64,000 nt of DNA from Galerina marginata (lineage: Eukaryota; Basidiomycota; Agaricomycetes; Agaricales; Galerinaceae), in assembly GCA_023014335.1 (NCBI GenBank), contig JAECYW010000017.1, positions 1,240,001 through 1,304,000 of the forward strand. The letters run 5' to 3'. The position numbers were made by a program, and so were the translations under genes. Shown here one piece after another: positions 23,816-64,000 of this stretch. Numbering within the stretch: position 1 is the first letter of the stretch; the number at the start of each line of letters is the position of its first letter. The notes beneath the pieces were generated by a model. It was not told the DNA's origin, did no database searches, and worked only from the letters and a program-made list of their open reading frames with translations.

Positions 23816-24085
23816 TAGCAAAGATTGGCAAATGGAGAAGGGCAGAAAATCTTCAAGTTTTCCCACTCTAGTTTCCACATTTACCCAGTGGCAAGGTTAC
23901 AAATTGTGGCATATCAAGTCGAGTAAATTTTAGATCTGAGGCGCTTGACTTCAGTTCTCAAAAGCACACATTTCTGAGGTTAGAGAAGGGAGTCAAGGGG
24001 CCACCAAAAGCGGCGAGCCTCAGTTTCAAAAGGCGGAACCAATGCAACAACATCACGTGTAACGCGTTAAATTGATTGTCGCGTT
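23816..24085. other. Spacer between gamma-tubulin relic and tandem array
   Basis: No coding content seen. Includes CACGTG (24055-24060) and the 10-bp palindrome TAACGCGTTA at 24060-24069, just before the array. Confidence 0.5.
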
Positions 24086-24125
24086 GTTGAGGCAGCTTCG
24101 CCATTCCAAGGGATTTCCAAAAGTG

Positions 24126-24190
24126 GACGATTTTCGATCAAGGACCGATTTTGACCGAGCAGACCGATTTGAAATCCGAAGGACCGATTT
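24126..24190 (+). repeat. Iteron-like GACCGATTT repeats (unit 1; present in every unit)
   Basis: GACGATTT at 24126 and GACCGATTT at 24143, 24162 and 24182, spaced 17, 19 and 20 bp apart. They are followed by CACGTG and a GC-rich block. The same arrangement recurs every 1125 bp. Spacing near two helical turns would suit repeated protein binding, but no binding factor is known. Confidence 0.7.
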
Positions 24191-24574
24191 AGGCACGTGA
24201 CCACACGCGCACCCAATTCACGCGTCGCGCGGGGCGCGCTCTGTGCGAAACCGCATGCAGGAGGCCCAATCTTGCTTCGAAAATTTTCAAATTTGGCAGA
24301 AATCTATGTAATTAAGTCCTAAACAAGTATACCAAAAAATATATTGAAATACCAGTCAGCTACCAGCTATATTACTCAAATCTTACAAAATCTTCGCCCA
24401 AAGAGATCCCCATGGCAGGTGCAGTGTAGTCAATAATTTATTGGTGTCCTTCAGAAGACTTGGAAATATATGCTAGAATGTCTATTCAATTGTTTTGAAA
24501 GGAAAGGAGTGAATGTGCTCCTCAAATTCAGAAAATAGAGGTACTTTTCGAAATTTAGACTAGAAGAGGAGGAC

Positions 24575-24901
24575 AGAATGGAGCATAGCTACACCAGTTT
24601 TCAGCCAAATCACTTGATTTTTTTGAGGTTTTGTGCGTATAAATATGTTCCAATCGACTGCGTAAAGACGACAAGGTCGCGTTGACCTTTAAGCAGTCGA
24701 AACGACAGTTTTATGCATTTTGAAGTAGAAATTTCAGAAAGGATGGAGCCTAGCTACACCAATTCTTAACCAAATCTCTTGAATATTTTTGTGCTGTGTA
24801 CGCATTAATATACTCAAATTAAATCCGTTGAGACGACAGGGTCGCGCTGATTTTTAAGTATTTAAAACGATGGTTTTTCGCATTTTGAAGTAGAAAATTC
24901 G
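24575..24901 (+). repeat. Two diverged ~165-bp direct sub-repeats (unit 1; in every unit)
   Basis: The first copy runs from AATGGAGCATAGCTACACC (about 24575) to CATTTTGAAGTAGAAATT (about 24735). The second runs from GGATGGAGCCTAGCTACACC (about 24741) to CATTTTGAAGTAGAAAATTC (about 24901). They share AGACGACA(A/G)GGTCGCG and AAACGA(C/T)(A/G)GTTTT blocks but differ at many positions. So this internal duplication is much older than the 1125-bp amplification. Confidence 0.8.
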
Positions 24902-25187
24902 TGCCTTGGTAATTAAGTCATGGCTGGTTCTTCATTTTTTAGGTCAGAGTCACAGAATTGTAGCTTAAAACGAATGGTATTTCCTCAGATAAACCTCATA
25001 GTGCATGGAATTTATTTCAGGGAAAAGGGTTTCTAACTAATACTCAAATACAATGTTCATTGACAAGGAATGGATTACTTCAGTGAGCCTGAGAAATACT
25101 CTCCGAGTTTAGAAATCCCTGGACAGATTTCTCAACTTTTAGAGGGAAATCCCTGGGCTCCAGAACGCACAGATTTGCTTCCGAGAG

Positions 25188-25237
25188 CCCTTGGAATGAC
25201 CAATTTTCCTGTTGAGGCAGCTTCGCCATTCCAAGGG
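25188..25237. repeat. 11-bp inverted repeat across the unit junction
   Basis: CCCTTGGAATG at 25188-25198 and CATTCCAAGGG at 25227-25237 form a perfect inverted repeat with a 28-nt loop that contains the junction 25210/25211. The same structure lies at each of the four internal junctions (period 1125). The arms are the subterminal ends of one unit, so a single unit has inverted-repeat-like termini. Confidence 0.85.
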
Positions 25238-28200
25238 ATTTCCAAAAGTGGACGATTTTCGATCAAGGACCGATTTTGACCGAGCAGACCGATTTGAAAT
25301 CCGAAGGACCGATTTAGGCACGTGACCACACGCGCACCCAATTCACGCGTCGCGCGGGGCGCGCTCTGTGCGAAACCGCATGCAGGAGGCCCAATCTTGC
25401 TTCGAAAATTTTCAAATTTGGCAGAAATCTATGTAATTAAGTCCTAAACAAGTATACCAAAAAATATATTGAAATACCAGTCAGCTACCAGCTATATTAC
25501 TCAAATCTTACAAAATCTTCGCCCAAAGAGATCCCCATGGCAGGTGCAGTGTAGTCAATAATTTATTGGTGTCCTTCAGAAGACTTGGAAATATATGCTA
25601 GAATGTCTATTCAATTGTTTTGAAAGGAAAGGAGTGAATGTGCTCCTCAAATTCAGAAAATAGAGGTACTTTTCGAAATTTAGACTAGAAGAGGAGGACA
25701 GAATGGAGCATAGCTACACCAGTTTTCAGCCAAATCACTTGATTTTTTTGAGGTTTTGTGCGTATAAATATGTTCCAATCGACTGCGTAAAGACGACAAG
25801 GTCGCGTTGACCTTTAAGCAGTCGAAACGACAGTTTTATGCATTTTGAAGTAGAAATTTCAGAAAGGATGGAGCCTAGCTACACCAATTCTTAACCAAAT
25901 CTCTTGAATATTTTTGTGCTGTGTACGCATTAATATACTCAAATTAAATCCGTTGAGACGACAGGGTCGCGCTGATTTTTAAGTATTTAAAACGATGGTT
26001 TTTCGCATTTTGAAGTAGAAAATTCGTGCCTTGGTAATTAAGTCATGGCTGGTTCTTCATTTTTTAGGTCAGAGTCACAGAATTGTAGCTTAAAACGAAT
26101 GGTATTTCCTCAGATAAACCTCATAGTGCATGGAATTTATTTCAGGGAAAAGGGTTTCTAACTAATACTCAAATACAATGTTCATTGACAAGGAATGGAT
26201 TACTTCAGTGAGCCTGAGAAATACTCTCCGAGTTTAGAAATCCCTGGACAGATTTCTCAACTTTTAGAGGGAAATCCCTGGGCTCCAGAACGCACAGATT
26301 TGCTTCCGAGAGCCCTTGGAATGACCAATTTTCCTGTTGAGGCAGCTTCGCCATTCCAAGGGATTTCCAAAAGTGGACGATTTTCGATCAAGGACCGATT
26401 TTGACCGAGCAGACCGATTTGAAATCCGAAGGACCGATTTAGGCACGTGACCACACGCGCACCCAATTCACGCGTCGCGCGGGGCGCGCTCTGTGCGAAA
26501 CCGCATGCAGGAGGCCCAATCTTGCTTCGAAAATTTTCAAATTTGGCAGAAATCTATGTAATTAAGTCCTAAACAAGTATACCAAAAAATATATTGAAAT
26601 ACCAGTCAGCTACCAGCTATATTACTCAAATCTTACAAAATCTTCGCCCAAAGAGATCCCCATGGCAGGTGCAGTGTAGTCAATAATTTATTGGTGTCCT
26701 TCAGAAGACTTGGAAATATATGCTAGAATGTCTATTCAATTGTTTTGAAAGGAAAGGAGTGAATGTGCTCCTCAAATTCAGAAAATAGAGGTACTTTTCG
26801 AAATTTAGACTAGAAGAGGAGGACAGAATGGAGCATAGCTACACCAGTTTTCAGCCAAATCACTTGATTTTTTTGAGGTTTTGTGCGTATAAATATGTTC
26901 CAATCGACTGCGTAAAGACGACAAGGTCGCGTTGACCTTTAAGCAGTCGAAACGACAGTTTTATGCATTTTGAAGTAGAAATTTCAGAAAGGATGGAGCC
27001 TAGCTACACCAATTCTTAACCAAATCTCTTGAATATTTTTGTGCTGTGTACGCATTAATATACTCAAATTAAATCCGTTGAGACGACAGGGTCGCGCTGA
27101 TTTTTAAGTATTTAAAACGATGGTTTTTCGCATTTTGAAGTAGAAAATTCGTGCCTTGGTAATTAAGTCATGGCTGGTTCTTCATTTTTTAGGTCAGAGT
27201 CACAGAATTGTAGCTTAAAACGAATGGTATTTCCTCAGATAAACCTCATAGTGCATGGAATTTATTTCAGGGAAAAGGGTTTCTAACTAATACTCAAATA
27301 CAATGTTCATTGACAAGGAATGGATTACTTCAGTGAGCCTGAGAAATACTCTCCGAGTTTAGAAATCCCTGGACAGATTTCTCAACTTTTAGAGGGAAAT
27401 CCCTGGGCTCCAGAACGCACAGATTTGCTTCCGAGAGCCCTTGGAATGACCAATTTTCCTGTTGAGGCAGCTTCGCCATTCCAAGGGATTTCCAAAAGTG
27501 GACGATTTTCGATCAAGGACCGATTTTGACCGAGCAGACCGATTTGAAATCCGAAGGACCGATTTAGGCACGTGACCACACGCGCACCCAATTCACGCGT
27601 CGCGCGGGGCGCGCTCTGTGCGAAACCGCATGCAGGAGGCCCAATCTTGCTTCGAAAATTTTCAAATTTGGCAGAAATCTATGTAATTAAGTCCTAAACA
27701 AGTATACCAAAAAATATATTGAAATACCAGTCAGCTACCAGCTATATTACTCAAATCTTACAAAATCTTCGCCCAAAGAGATCCCCATGGCAGGTGCAGT
27801 GTAGTCAATAATTTATTGGTGTCCTTCAGAAGACTTGGAAATATATGCTAGAATGTCTATTCAATTGTTTTGAAAGGAAAGGAGTGAATGTGCTCCTCAA
27901 ATTCAGAAAATAGAGGTACTTTTCGAAATTTAGACTAGAAGAGGAGGACAGAATGGAGCATAGCTACACCAGTTTTCAGCCAAATCACTTGATTTTTTTG
28001 AGGTTTTGTGCGTATAAATATGTTCCAATCGACTGCGTAAAGACGACAAGGTCGCGTTGACCTTTAAGCAGTCGAAACGACAGTTTTATGCATTTTGAAG
28101 TAGAAATTTCAGAAAGGATGGAGCCTAGCTACACCAATTCTTAACCAAATCTCTTGAATATTTTTGTGCTGTGTACGCATTAATATACTCAAATTAAATC

Positions 28201-29710
28201 CGTTGAGACGACAGGGTCGCGCTGATTTTTAAGTATTTAAAACGATGGTTTTTCGCATTTTGAAGTAGAAAATTCGTGCCTTGGTAATTAAGTCATGGCT
28301 GGTTCTTCATTTTTTAGGTCAGAGTCACAGAATTGTAGCTTAAAACGAATGGTATTTCCTCAGATAAACCTCATAGTGCATGGAATTTATTTCAGGGAAA
28401 AGGGTTTCTAACTAATACTCAAATACAATGTTCATTGACAAGGAATGGATTACTTCAGTGAGCCTGAGAAATACTCTCCGAGTTTAGAAATCCCTGGACA
28501 GATTTCTCAACTTTTAGAGGGAAATCCCTGGGCTCCAGAACGCACAGATTTGCTTCCGAGAGCCCTTGGAATGACCAATTTTCCTGTTGAGGCAGCTTCG
28601 CCATTCCAAGGGATTTCCAAAAGTGGACGATTTTCGATCAAGGACCGATTTTGACCGAGCAGACCGATTTGAAATCCGAAGGACCGATTTAGGCACGTGA
28701 CCACACGCGCACCCAATTCACGCGTCGCGCGGGGCGCGCTCTGTGCGAAACCGCATGCAGGAGGCCCAATCTTGCTTCGAAAATTTTCAAATTTGGCAGA
28801 AATCTATGTAATTAAGTCCTAAACAAGTATACCAAAAAATATATTGAAATACCAGTCAGCTACCAGCTATATTACTCAAATCTTACAAAATCTTCGCCCA
28901 AAGAGATCCCCATGGCAGGTGCAGTGTAGTCAATAATTTATTGGTGTCCTTCAGAAGACTTGGAAATATATGCTAGAATGTCTATTCAATTGTTTTGAAA
29001 GGAAAGGAGTGAATGTGCTCCTCAAATTCAGAAAATAGAGGTACTTTTCGAAATTTAGACTAGAAGAGGAGGACAGAATGGAGCATAGCTACACCAGTTT
29101 TCAGCCAAATCACTTGATTTTTTTGAGGTTTTGTGCGTATAAATATGTTCCAATCGACTGCGTAAAGACGACAAGGTCGCGTTGACCTTTAAGCAGTCGA
29201 AACGACAGTTTTATGCATTTTGAAGTAGAAATTTCAGAAAGGATGGAGCCTAGCTACACCAATTCTTAACCAAATCTCTTGAATATTTTTGTGCTGTGTA
29301 CGCATTAATATACTCAAATTAAATCCGTTGAGACGACAGGGTCGCGCTGATTTTTAAGTATTTAAAACGATGGTTTTTCGCATTTTGAAGTAGAAAATTC
29401 GTGCCTTGGTAATTAAGTCATGGCTGGTTCTTCATTTTTTAGGTCAGAGTCACAGAATTGTAGCTTAAAACGAATGGTATTTCCTCAGATAAACCTCATA
29501 GTGCATGGAATTTATTTCAGGGAAAAGGGTTTCTAACTAATACTCAAATACAATGTTCATTGACAAGGAATGGATTACTTCAGTGAGCCTGAGAAATACT
29601 CTCCGAGTTTAGAAATCCCTGGACAGATTTCTCAACTTTTAGAGGGAAATCCCTGGGCTCCAGAACGCACAGATTTGCTTCCGAGAGCCCTTGGAATGAC
29701 CAATTTTCCC

Positions 29711-30123
29711 GTTGTTGACGCGACGCGTCAATGCTTGTTGGGAGTAAAAATAGCTGCAATGTACAGTCCACTTACTTTAAGTATATCGAGTAAATGGGAT
29801 TGAGCTCAGTTCAATGATGATCATGCTCAAAAGAAGGCATAAAATAAGTTAACAGATCAGTCGGTTCTTCCGGACAAATGACACCCTCTAGAGTGTGCGA
29901 GGAATAATAGTGTAGTCCATCAAATTGTTATGTACAACAAGGTCTTTGATATACTTAGAGCTATGATATCAATATCGAATTTATTATTACAGGTCGGAAA
30001 CTAACTACTTCAGTTGAGTACAGTGGGCGATGTGCCGTAGAGCAATTGTCGATTCCAGGCAAACAGGACGAAACAAGGCAGACTAATGCTTACCGTTTAC
30101 GAAGGAGACATGGTGATAGGATG
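29711..30123. other. Spacer after the array; 17-bp palindrome
   Basis: Begins with GTTGTTGA, the same octamer that precedes the array, then the perfect palindrome TTGACGCG-A-CGCGTCAA at 29715-29731. The rest is AT-rich, with no gene seen up to the RING gene's stop. Confidence 0.6.
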
Positions 30124-40529: not shown

Positions 40530-41408
40530 CTAACACAGGCAGGGTAAATGTATCGTTTGTAAAGTACAACTTTGCCCCGCTGGCATGTCGTTTCCATTTT
40601 GAAGGTAAATGCTGTAGAATGTCGATGAGCTCGTTGCGCATGCGATGAAAATTTAGTTGTCTGGGGGCTGTAGTGATGATTGTGTCGCCTTCCAAGCCCC
40701 AGTCTGTTGTCGTGGCCGTCTTCCCGAAGGTAAGTGCTTGGTAAGAGGCAGTCCCAGTGGTGTTGAGGTTTAAATAAAGTTTCGAGCCGTCTGCTTGGTT
40801 CAGGCTAATTGTGCCGCCGATTGTAAAGAGTCCCGCAGAGGCTTCTGGACCGAGGAGGGGCACACCGCCTATGTAGAACAGAAGATAAGCGCATAGCATC
40901 ATTGTGTAAAGGGAACTAACCGCTGTTTTGCAGGTAGAAATGGAAAACAGGTGCTTGAACTGTGCGAATTTGGGATCCTGTTGGGGTAGCTCCGGTGGAG
41001 GTCGTGGTCGCTGTAGTTGTGGTACTTTTGGTTGTAGTACTTGTACTCGTAGTTGTGGGCTTGGTTGTCGTGCTCGTGCTCGTGCTTGAAGGCTTGGTAG
41101 TTGTAGGGCTGGTTGTGGTCGCAGTGCCGGGTAGGCATTGCGAGTAGTCTAAGAGCAGTACTGGCATGCATTGCTTTAGCGGTCGAGTAAATAGCGTGGA
41201 TTTTGCATACATGGGTTGCTATAGGTGCATGTGTATCCTGCTACGCAGGAAGTTGCACCAGTCCTGTGATCGTTTAAATTTTGCCTGCTAGGCCTCAACT
41301 GTGATTTACGCACCAATTTTGACCACCACACTGTCCATAAGCGCCAGACTGCGCGCTAACTTCAAATAGAAAGAAACCTGACAGGGTGATCGCAAGGACG
41401 AGATTCAT
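40530..41408 (-). CDS. Secreted protein with N-terminal CBM1 and uncharacterised C-terminal domain
   Basis: Signal peptide MNLVLAITLSGFFLFEVSAQ, then a fungal cellulose-binding CBM1 built from three exons: SGAYGQCGGQNW, TGATSCVAGYTCTYSNP and YYSQCLPG. These have the spaced cysteines and aromatic residues that grip cellulose. A long Thr/Ser/Pro linker (TTTSPTTTKPSSTSTSTTTK and on) follows. The C-terminal domain begins QAPVFHFYLQNSG, continues ASAGLFTIGGTISLNQADGS, YLNLNTTGTASYQALTFGK and ends SIYLQNGNDMPAGQSCTLQT with a final CLC (stop 40530-40532). I cannot assign this domain an activity. A one-base break near 40645 is needed to reach this ending; the uncorrected frame stops at 40519. Predicted extracellular. 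Convergent with the GH16 gene. Confidence 0.82.
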
Positions 41409-62226: not shown

Positions 62227-64000
62227 TCATCGCAGGAGGTCCAAGCGTTGGTCATTTGAGGGGTATCGATATGCGACAAAGTCAGAGTCCTGCTGGACCA
62301 ACTCCTCAAGGGCTTTTCGGGAAGTGACAGACATTCGCAAGTTAGGGTTGGCCTGACCAGAACTACTGTGTCGCGAAGTCGAAGTGCCGTATCCGGTTGT
62401 TGTCAAATCATCTTGGTTGTCGTAGGGGACGTATCCCATAGAGGGAAATTGGTGGCCAATATTTTCCTGCATGAGTTCCTGATGTTGTTCGCGTTTGTCG
62501 CTCTTTTTGCTGAGGAGAGAAGAGAAGCCAAATTTGCTCTTTCGTTTAGTAGAGGGAAGTGGAGAACTTGTTCTTGGAGGATGCTCTTGAACATGTTCAA
62601 GCCTGCCTAGGGATCGTCGTGATATGCCAAATTCGTCATAACGAGGACCAAGGGATCTGCGGGAATCGAAGTCAACAGGTTTGCTGACAGGCATAGTCTG
62701 GAAACCGTTGAGGTTTGGCCTCGAGGAAGTGCCTCCGAACGATTGCCGCCTTCCTTCACCTGACCTAAATGGTGCCTGTGGCGGAAGGAAGTCGTGGGCT
62801 GGACCAGAGCCTGGTGGCAAGGTGTAGACCGTACGTGGCCTAATATCAGAAGGAAGAATCCGAGCTGGTTGTTCCCCAGGAGGAAGGGGTGGTAACGACT
62901 TTTCGCGAGCCAGAGGTGTTGGTCGGTTCGATCCATTGGTCCCGTTAACGTTCAGAGTGTTCGAAGCAGAGACTGGGAGAGGGGAAATCGAACCACTGGT
63001 TGTGCGACGTAATTCCGAGTCCGACGTGGCTGAGTGGATAGACTTCCAGGTAGCATTAGTCACTTTGACACTCGTTTCTTCAGGTCCATATTTAAGCTCT
63101 TGGTCCTCTGCATCGTTGCCGTTGCGACTCTCGGCTACATCTATGTCAACGCCGGGTGTACGCAATGAGGTTGGGGAGGGCAAGATGCTTGATGGAGCAG
63201 TAGGCGGAGACATACCAGGAGATGATAATCCAAATTTAGGGGAGGCGGAAGATGGCACCAAAGAAGGAGTAGAAGCGTGACGCATTCCACCAGAGTGTAG
63301 ATCAGAAGGTCCTCGATCGACAAGGTAGGATAAAGGAGGAGGCGGAGCCAAGGGCGTATCATCTTCGTGACCTTCATCGCGGTGCGCTAGATCCCTTTGC
63401 TGAGAATCATTCTTGCCGGTAACAATCCGCCATATCTTGGCCAAACCTCCTTTCTTCTTCTTGACCTTGTCTTCTTGAAGGATTTGAGAGGCATTCATGT
63501 CTTCTAATTCTGTAGGAGGCCAAATTTGACTACGACGAGGCGTGTTCAAATCTATGGGAGACGATGTAAGAGGGTGAGGGCCATATGCCTCTCGCTGTAA
63601 AGCAACGCTGTGAAAATAAAGGTAAGTAGACTCCCGCAAGATATACAAGTGAAGTCACGGACTGCATATCAACCATGCTCCCTGACATTCCAGAGGGGGC
63701 AAGGCTATCCTGGCTTCGCCACCCTGCACTAAGGTTTTTCATCCCAAAGAATCTTGTTCGTCGAGGAGATGACGACCCCATGCTATGGACATCTGAGAAA
63801 GATGCTTGAGAATATGCGCGAGGAAGATCTGGCCGGTCCAGTGGGGCGGTCAGGACGCTGGTAGGTCGTGCGGAACTCGCGTGAGAATATCTTGAATACG
63901 GCTTCAAACCGTTCTCGGTAAGCGGTATAGTGCTTTGAGCAGATATAATAGATGTCACATCCATGGCTGAGCCTCTGGATGACTTGCGTGCCCGTCTCTC
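62227..64000 (-). CDS. Large disordered Ser/Pro-rich protein, C-terminal part (5' end beyond right edge)
   Basis: The frame is open to the last base (ERRARKSSRGSAMDVTS...), so the start lies outside the window. The visible part has two exons joined near 63610-63660 (MSGSMVDMQS to VALQREAYGPHPLTSSP). It is rich in Ser, Pro, Arg and Gly and has short basic motifs (EDKVKKKKGGLAKIWRIVTG, SPRRTRFFGMKNLSAGWRSQ, TKRKSKFGFSSLLSKKSDK). The end is ALEELVQQDSDFVAYRYPSN then DQRLDLLR. No catalytic domain in this part. The pattern suits a scaffolding or regulatory tail with many phosphorylation sites. Family not recognised from this end alone. Confidence 0.75.

Follow-up and report, generated by a model that had tools for sequence, protein, structure and literature searches.

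Background

The majority of bacterial insertion sequence (IS) families move by a copy-out/paste-in pathway, whereas transposition of eukaryotic DNA elements is described as largely cut-and-paste, replicative pathways dominating in bacteria (PMC7780238). In the IS256-family element ISCth4, the attack by one transposon end falls on flanking DNA immediately beyond the other; the recovered junctions held 6-8 bp spacers, drawn from the left flank in 5/8 cases, and integration, which makes 8-bp duplications, was best from a 6-bp junction, while circles of IS256 itself had junctions of 5, 6, 7 or 19 bp (PMC7780238). Tandem dimers are named for IS256 in the title of a referenced paper. Here we describe a tandem array of five identical DNA transposon units, joined by six bases of flanking DNA, in the mushroom Galerina marginata. 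The array lies in a stretch of 64,000 nucleotides that was analysed whole (contig JAECYW010000017.1, C9:1240001-1304000 in our numbering), hereafter the window.

Other systems bear on the comparison. MULEs are the eukaryotic kin of IS256, with 8-9 bp duplications and many non-autonomous derivatives (PMC5225508). The eukaryotic transposon KolobokP forms tandem multimers, usually within target duplications, and a circular intermediate has been discussed from its excision footprints (PMC9587614). In the bacterial strand-biased circularizing integrative elements (SE), the junction of the circle includes 6 bp taken from the left flank, in what is described as a copy-out-like process (PMC10214605).

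Results

A perfect five-unit array

A first-pass annotation of the window had described five identical head-to-tail units with a period of 1125 bp, and the repetition is as exact as it claimed: when the sequence is compared with itself at an offset of 1125, 4500/4500 positions agree (24085-28584; coordinates without a prefix are those of the window), and a repeat search returned five 300-nt segments, spaced by 1125, that are mutually 100% identical. Beyond the array the offset identity drops to 0.17-0.36 per 100-base block, the background level, on both sides. The location first given, 24086..29710, is off by one base; the leading 6 bp of the first unit as then drawn are flank, not element.

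In element terms, the array consists of five 1119-bp elements and four identical 6-bp spacers, all read on the forward strand. The elements occupy 24091..25209, 25216..26334, 26341..27459, 27466..28584 and 28591..29709, and the spacers, each TGTTGA, stand at 25210..25215, 26335..26340, 27460..27465 and 28585..28590. The limits of copy 1 (GGCAGC...TTTTCC) follow from the offset identity and from dispersed copies whose ends are marked by target duplications; the inverted-repeat pattern places its left repeat, GGCAGCTTCGCCATTCCAAGGGATTTC, at 24091..24117 (+) and its right repeat, GGAAAATTGGTCATTCCAAGGGCTCTC, at 25183..25209 (-). One 9-bp target-site duplication, CGTTGTTGA, encloses the whole array, the same 9-mer standing at both outer edges (24082..24090 and 29710..29718). 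Every unit contains a diverged internal tandem duplication of ~165 bp, its two copies ~76% alike (24572..24900 in copy 1), which is present in other family members as well. The units are non-coding as far as tested, as had been supposed: stop-free stretches in the six frames of the array span 98 codons at most, none reaching 100; no Rfam match at gathering score occurs anywhere in the 64-kb window, and ARAGORN predicts no tRNA or tmRNA.

Spacers copied from the left flank

All four junctions of the window array read TTTTCC-TGTTGA-GGCAGC, and the left flank, too, closes with TGTTGA. The host genome (69.3 Mb in 43 contigs) was scanned for a right tip, 0-30 bp and a left tip with no mismatches, a scan that diverged arrays could escape. 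It returned six array junctions, one 4-bp junction and two matches without a family member, against 2 + 2 for the controls. At C22:378225-380468, two units that are identical over 1119 bp are joined by GCTTTC, the left flank ending in CTGCTTTC; at C40:256144-256401, two units of the 126-bp short form of the family are joined by GGGGAC, the left flank ending in GCGGGGAC. The spacer equals the 6 bp of local left flank in 3/3 intact arrays, and the chance probability of each such match is 4^-6.

Because each spacer matches the present flank of its array, each array was made after insertion and grew at its own locus; a pasted-in multimer would carry the letters of its previous donor. Recombination between the target duplications did not make the spacers, since these are 6 bp long and the duplications 8-9 bp. 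Breakpoints are the same in 3/3 arrays, one exactly at the right end and the other 6 bp beyond the left end, so that this geometry is very likely enzyme-directed, with the positions probably chosen by an enzyme that recognizes the transposon ends. Barring an assembly error, it is near certain that a non-autonomous mushroom DNA transposon was multiplied recently, and in place, to give the window array. The very recent amplification envisaged in the first-pass annotation is borne out by array units that are identical, while the closest copies elsewhere match them at 91%.

A dispersed family of non-autonomous transposons

Searching the host genome with one unit, a check proposed at the outset, gave at least 57 matches on many contigs (40/44 candidates scored), ranging from full-length or near-full-length copies, with 74-91% identity, to fragments. 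Comparison of the edges of full-length copies defines a mobile unit that begins with GGCAGCTTCGCCATTCCAAGGGATTTCC, ends with GAGAGCCCTTGGAATGACCAATTTTCC and spans 1119 bp; the other 6 bp of the 1125-bp period vary by locus. The unit ends in imperfect inverted repeats, GGCAGCTTCGCCATTCCAAGGG... and GGAAAATTGGTCATTCCAAGGG..., with the common core CATTCCAAGGG; allowing up to 2 mismatches, this pattern occurs at 51 places in the host genome, a few probably by chance, while a reversed control pattern occurs at 0. The unit is a non-autonomous inverted-repeat DNA transposon dispersed in the host genome, so that 'amplified non-autonomous element', one of several identities first offered, was apt. A satellite, another of them, does not agree with the exact-match junction scans, which diverged arrays could escape and which gave one five-unit and two two-unit arrays, the family otherwise consisting of dispersed single copies that bear target duplications. 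Helitrons and Cryptons insert without an 8-9 bp target duplication. Membership of either group was rejected, since the family makes duplications of that size, and these, together with the inverted repeats, also speak against a rolling-circle product in the Helitron sense.

Target-site duplications and rearranged loci

Long-form copies were assessed at the 12 loci with both ends readable (the array, single copies and partner elements), copies with unclear ends being excluded. At nine of these, both ends are touched in cis by an exact direct repeat of 8 or 9 bp, two loci on C22 hold their duplications in trans, and one, the partner element C3:1701606-1710230, is without a target duplication.

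The two C22 loci, a single copy at C22:322311-323429 (L012) and the two-unit array at C22:378225-380468 (L011), lie 55 kb apart in opposite orientation and show 1 difference in 1119 bp. The sequence CTGCTTTC is found to the left of one and to the right of the other, CAAAAGCG has the reverse arrangement, and the single copy has 9 extra bases between CAAAAGCG and the element. The swapped duplications are what would remain if the two copies had recently recombined and inverted the 55 kb between them. At the left edge of the single copy (C22:322311), the first 9 bp of the element, GGCAGCTTC, stand twice, adjoining CAAAAGCG; this doubled tip is likely a relic of self-insertion into the tip. At C21:486124-487164 (L061), the right end of an old copy is followed directly by an internal part of another copy (its positions 61-86 and 100-147), the arrangement being nested or self-inserted.

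The short form was examined at C40:256144-256401, C40:375914-376040, C1:4355618, C1:4376515 and C11:11401. On C1, CCTATCCC is common to both of its copies, in trans.

Partner elements and a putative transposase

Pairing of end fragments revealed three partner elements of 8.1-8.6 kb with nearly the same ends as the unit and with 8-bp duplications, and a protein search revealed a fourth, of 8.6 kb; a target duplication of 8 bp is present at 3/4 partner elements and none was seen at the fourth. Only the outer ends are common to the unit and the two partners compared with it, over 97 unit positions on the left and 99-128 on the right. The 8.1-kb partners at C23:606817-614909 and C40:681422-689576 are 99.5% alike over 7.7 kb, each within its own 8-bp duplication, which marks a recent spread of the family.

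The exons of one partner, L075, encode in order the motifs LDNTFK, ADNCC, LDVYHF and RIEGSHKGWN, a zinc-finger-like stretch and an XPG-type nuclease (XPG_I, PF00867, E 4.2e-14, L075 alone having been scanned); IS256-like transposase motifs can be read in them. Matching exons were found in 4/4 partner copies. Homologues at E <= 0.001 numbered 171 in one search and 317 in another, and where species are named, in the top 120 of the 317, they are ones that we take to be agaricomycetes. Among 12 homologues scanned, no Pfam transposase family scored above its cut-off: Pfam MULE matched 2/12 at E <= 0.5 (best E 6e-4, 20.6 bits against a cut-off of 27.6) and DDE_Tnp_ISL3 matched 1/12 (E 0.012). For the predicted structure of a homologue from another fungus, the best match in the Protein Data Bank (PDB) was the IS256-family fold of ISCth4.

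Surroundings of the array

The array sits in gene-bearing DNA, the window containing a frame that matches the iron-hydrogenase large subunit (PF02906; 10016-10816, -) and one that matches an amino-acid transporter (PF01490; 14363-14992, +). The 1.5 kb to the left of the array has itself as sole match in the host genome. Further along, an open frame of 473 aa (62227-63648, -) has no Pfam match and 286 homologues, those named among the 120 listed being from mushrooms, and a 33-bp tandem repeat of 2.4 copies lies at 41028-41105.

Discussion

Comparison with described systems

The closest likeness is to the IS256 family (ISCth4 and IS256), which resembles the mushroom elements in the predicted fold of the transposase homologue, in a C/DxxH motif, in the 8-9 bp duplication and in a few-base junction spacer taken from one flank. 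Those elements are bacterial and either end can serve as donor, whereas here the host is a fungus, the transposase is divided into exons, an XPG-type nuclease accompanies it and the spacer is from the left in 3/3 intact arrays. MULEs share the duplication size, the non-autonomous derivatives and the weak Pfam match noted above; because that score lies below the Pfam cut-off, the partner transposase is not filed as a MULE.

An XPG nuclease is also encoded by AcademX, the resemblance here lying in partner L075. Reported duplications are 3-4 bp for AcademX and 9-10 bp for AcademH (PMC10045372); given the 8 bp at three of the four partners, these are not filed as AcademX. KolobokP, likewise a eukaryotic DNA transposon that forms multimers, is the nearest eukaryotic precedent that we met for a suspected circular intermediate. 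As described in PMC9587614, it differs in the long terminal direct repeats common to its units and in duplications of 3-5 bp, and the same description reports no flank-derived spacers between units; the units of the present family meet at 6-bp spacers, and a shared terminal direct repeat of the KolobokP type was not found in them. SE, here grouped with Tn554, are alike in the 6-bp left-flank junction of the SE circle and the copy-out-like pathway and, so far as their description goes (PMC10214605), unlike in using bacterial tyrosine recombinases and in leaving a 6-bp integration footprint in place of target duplications of 8-9 bp.

How the array may have formed

Copy-out is proposed on the strength of 6-bp spacers, 8-9 bp duplications and a partner transposase of the same predicted fold as in the IS256 family, and we regard an IS256-style copy-out/paste-in intermediate as the best explanation of the junctions, with a probability of roughly 0.6. 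The element would have inserted once, making the 9-bp duplication. A transposase supplied by partner elements of ~8.1-8.6 kb would then have cleaved the right end and linked it to a site in the left flank, 6 bp away from the element, yielding a circle or a branched precursor with a 6-bp junction. This intermediate may have recombined with, or been copied into, the parent locus to give a dimer, which further rounds or unequal exchange could have extended to five units.

The same junction could in principle arise otherwise. A second copy might have inserted at the left tip of the first, in an 8-bp target composed of 6 bp of flank and GG, so giving a 6-bp spacer; recombination with a single-copy allele would later have removed the extra GG, and unequal exchange would have raised the count. 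Tandem dimers of transposable elements are reported to arise by double insertion (McGurk and Barbash 2018, cited in PMC12368964 and PMC9659126), a process also known to seed satellites (PMC12368964, PMC9659126), and the doubled first 9 bp outside the left end of the C22 single copy are what self-insertion predicts. Yet the flank6-GG-GGCAGC expected at the outer left edge is seen in 0/3 arrays, so a separate cleaning crossover is needed for each, the same target offset is required three times and the offset of the C22 relic differs; we hold this course of events to be unlikely. Still less probable in our estimation is an off-set cut-and-paste, in which an excised linear element keeps a 6-nt overhang of left flank and is ligated beside a sister with a cut at the right end alone. 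This would produce the junction without a circle, and footprints of the MULE Muta1 suggest that a MULE transposase cuts outside the element ends (PMC5225508), but it demands that the two ends be cut unequally on three occasions, with offsets of 6 nt at the left end and 0 at the right, and that capture follow at the same locus each time; had the cuts been symmetric, both flanks would be represented.

A tandem duplication of the ordinary kind, arising through replication slippage or microhomology, or a nascent satellite, in either case with no role for transposase, would also yield identical units and keep the target duplication. It would have to strike the exact right end and the point 6 bp outside the left end at three unrelated places, and the window breakpoints, TTTTCC|CGTTG and TCGCGT|TGTTGA, have no microhomology directly at the join, which makes it very improbable. 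An expanded repeat created by assembly is the most improbable of all: the copy number of five is that of the assembly, but one target duplication encloses the array and the junction geometry recurs at two loci with other letters, each of the three arrays matching its own flank, and the 69-Mb assembly, in which the array takes up 5.6 kb, consists of 43 contigs.

Several observations weigh against the copy-out interpretation. It is drawn from assembled sequence, no circle was observed, and the arrays known are three intact ones of one family in one genome. Their spacers are left-derived in 3/3 cases, when either end serves in ISCth4 and IS256; that uniformity lends weak support to a left-end bias. 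A decayed junction at C21:479440-479459 (L060) shows TTTC, a spacer of 4 bp, next to a right end of which 14 bp remain. The target duplication is present in cis at 0/5 short-form loci, and the C40 two-unit array shows none. Self-insertion seems to occur in the family, as at the C22 tip and in the old C21 copy, which feeds the double-insertion alternative. In 2/4 partner copies, the match to the exon with the second D runs across one in-frame TAG; the homologue model has a mean pLDDT of 66.7, and its TM score is 0.44-0.51 when normalised by the ISCth4 chains. Finally, Muta1, among the eukaryotic relatives that we met the one studied best, excises and reinserts in yeast (PMC5225508), and the title of a 2017 paper likens MULE transposition to that of hAT and Transib.

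Conclusions

A fuller version of the copy-out proposal, which we put forward tentatively and at somewhat less than even odds, is a eukaryotic IS256-style copy-out/paste-in system: a transposase of IS256 fold with its own XPG nuclease would join the right end 6 bp into the left flank and form circles, serving both the spread of the family and the building of perfect arrays in place. A possible task of the XPG nuclease is the processing of the branched intermediate. The mushroom family may represent a eukaryotic lineage that retained the bacterial pathway, MULEs and hATs having moved to cut-and-paste. Flank-derived 6-bp junctions in eukaryotic arrays provide a cheap test, needing only sequence, for an intermediate that carries flanking DNA, and with 317 partner-transposase homologues at E <= 0.001, common in mushrooms, the prediction can be checked in many genomes. 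Such junctions further suggest that a single inserted transposon can become a perfect tandem array directly, and such an array is the seed of a satellite.

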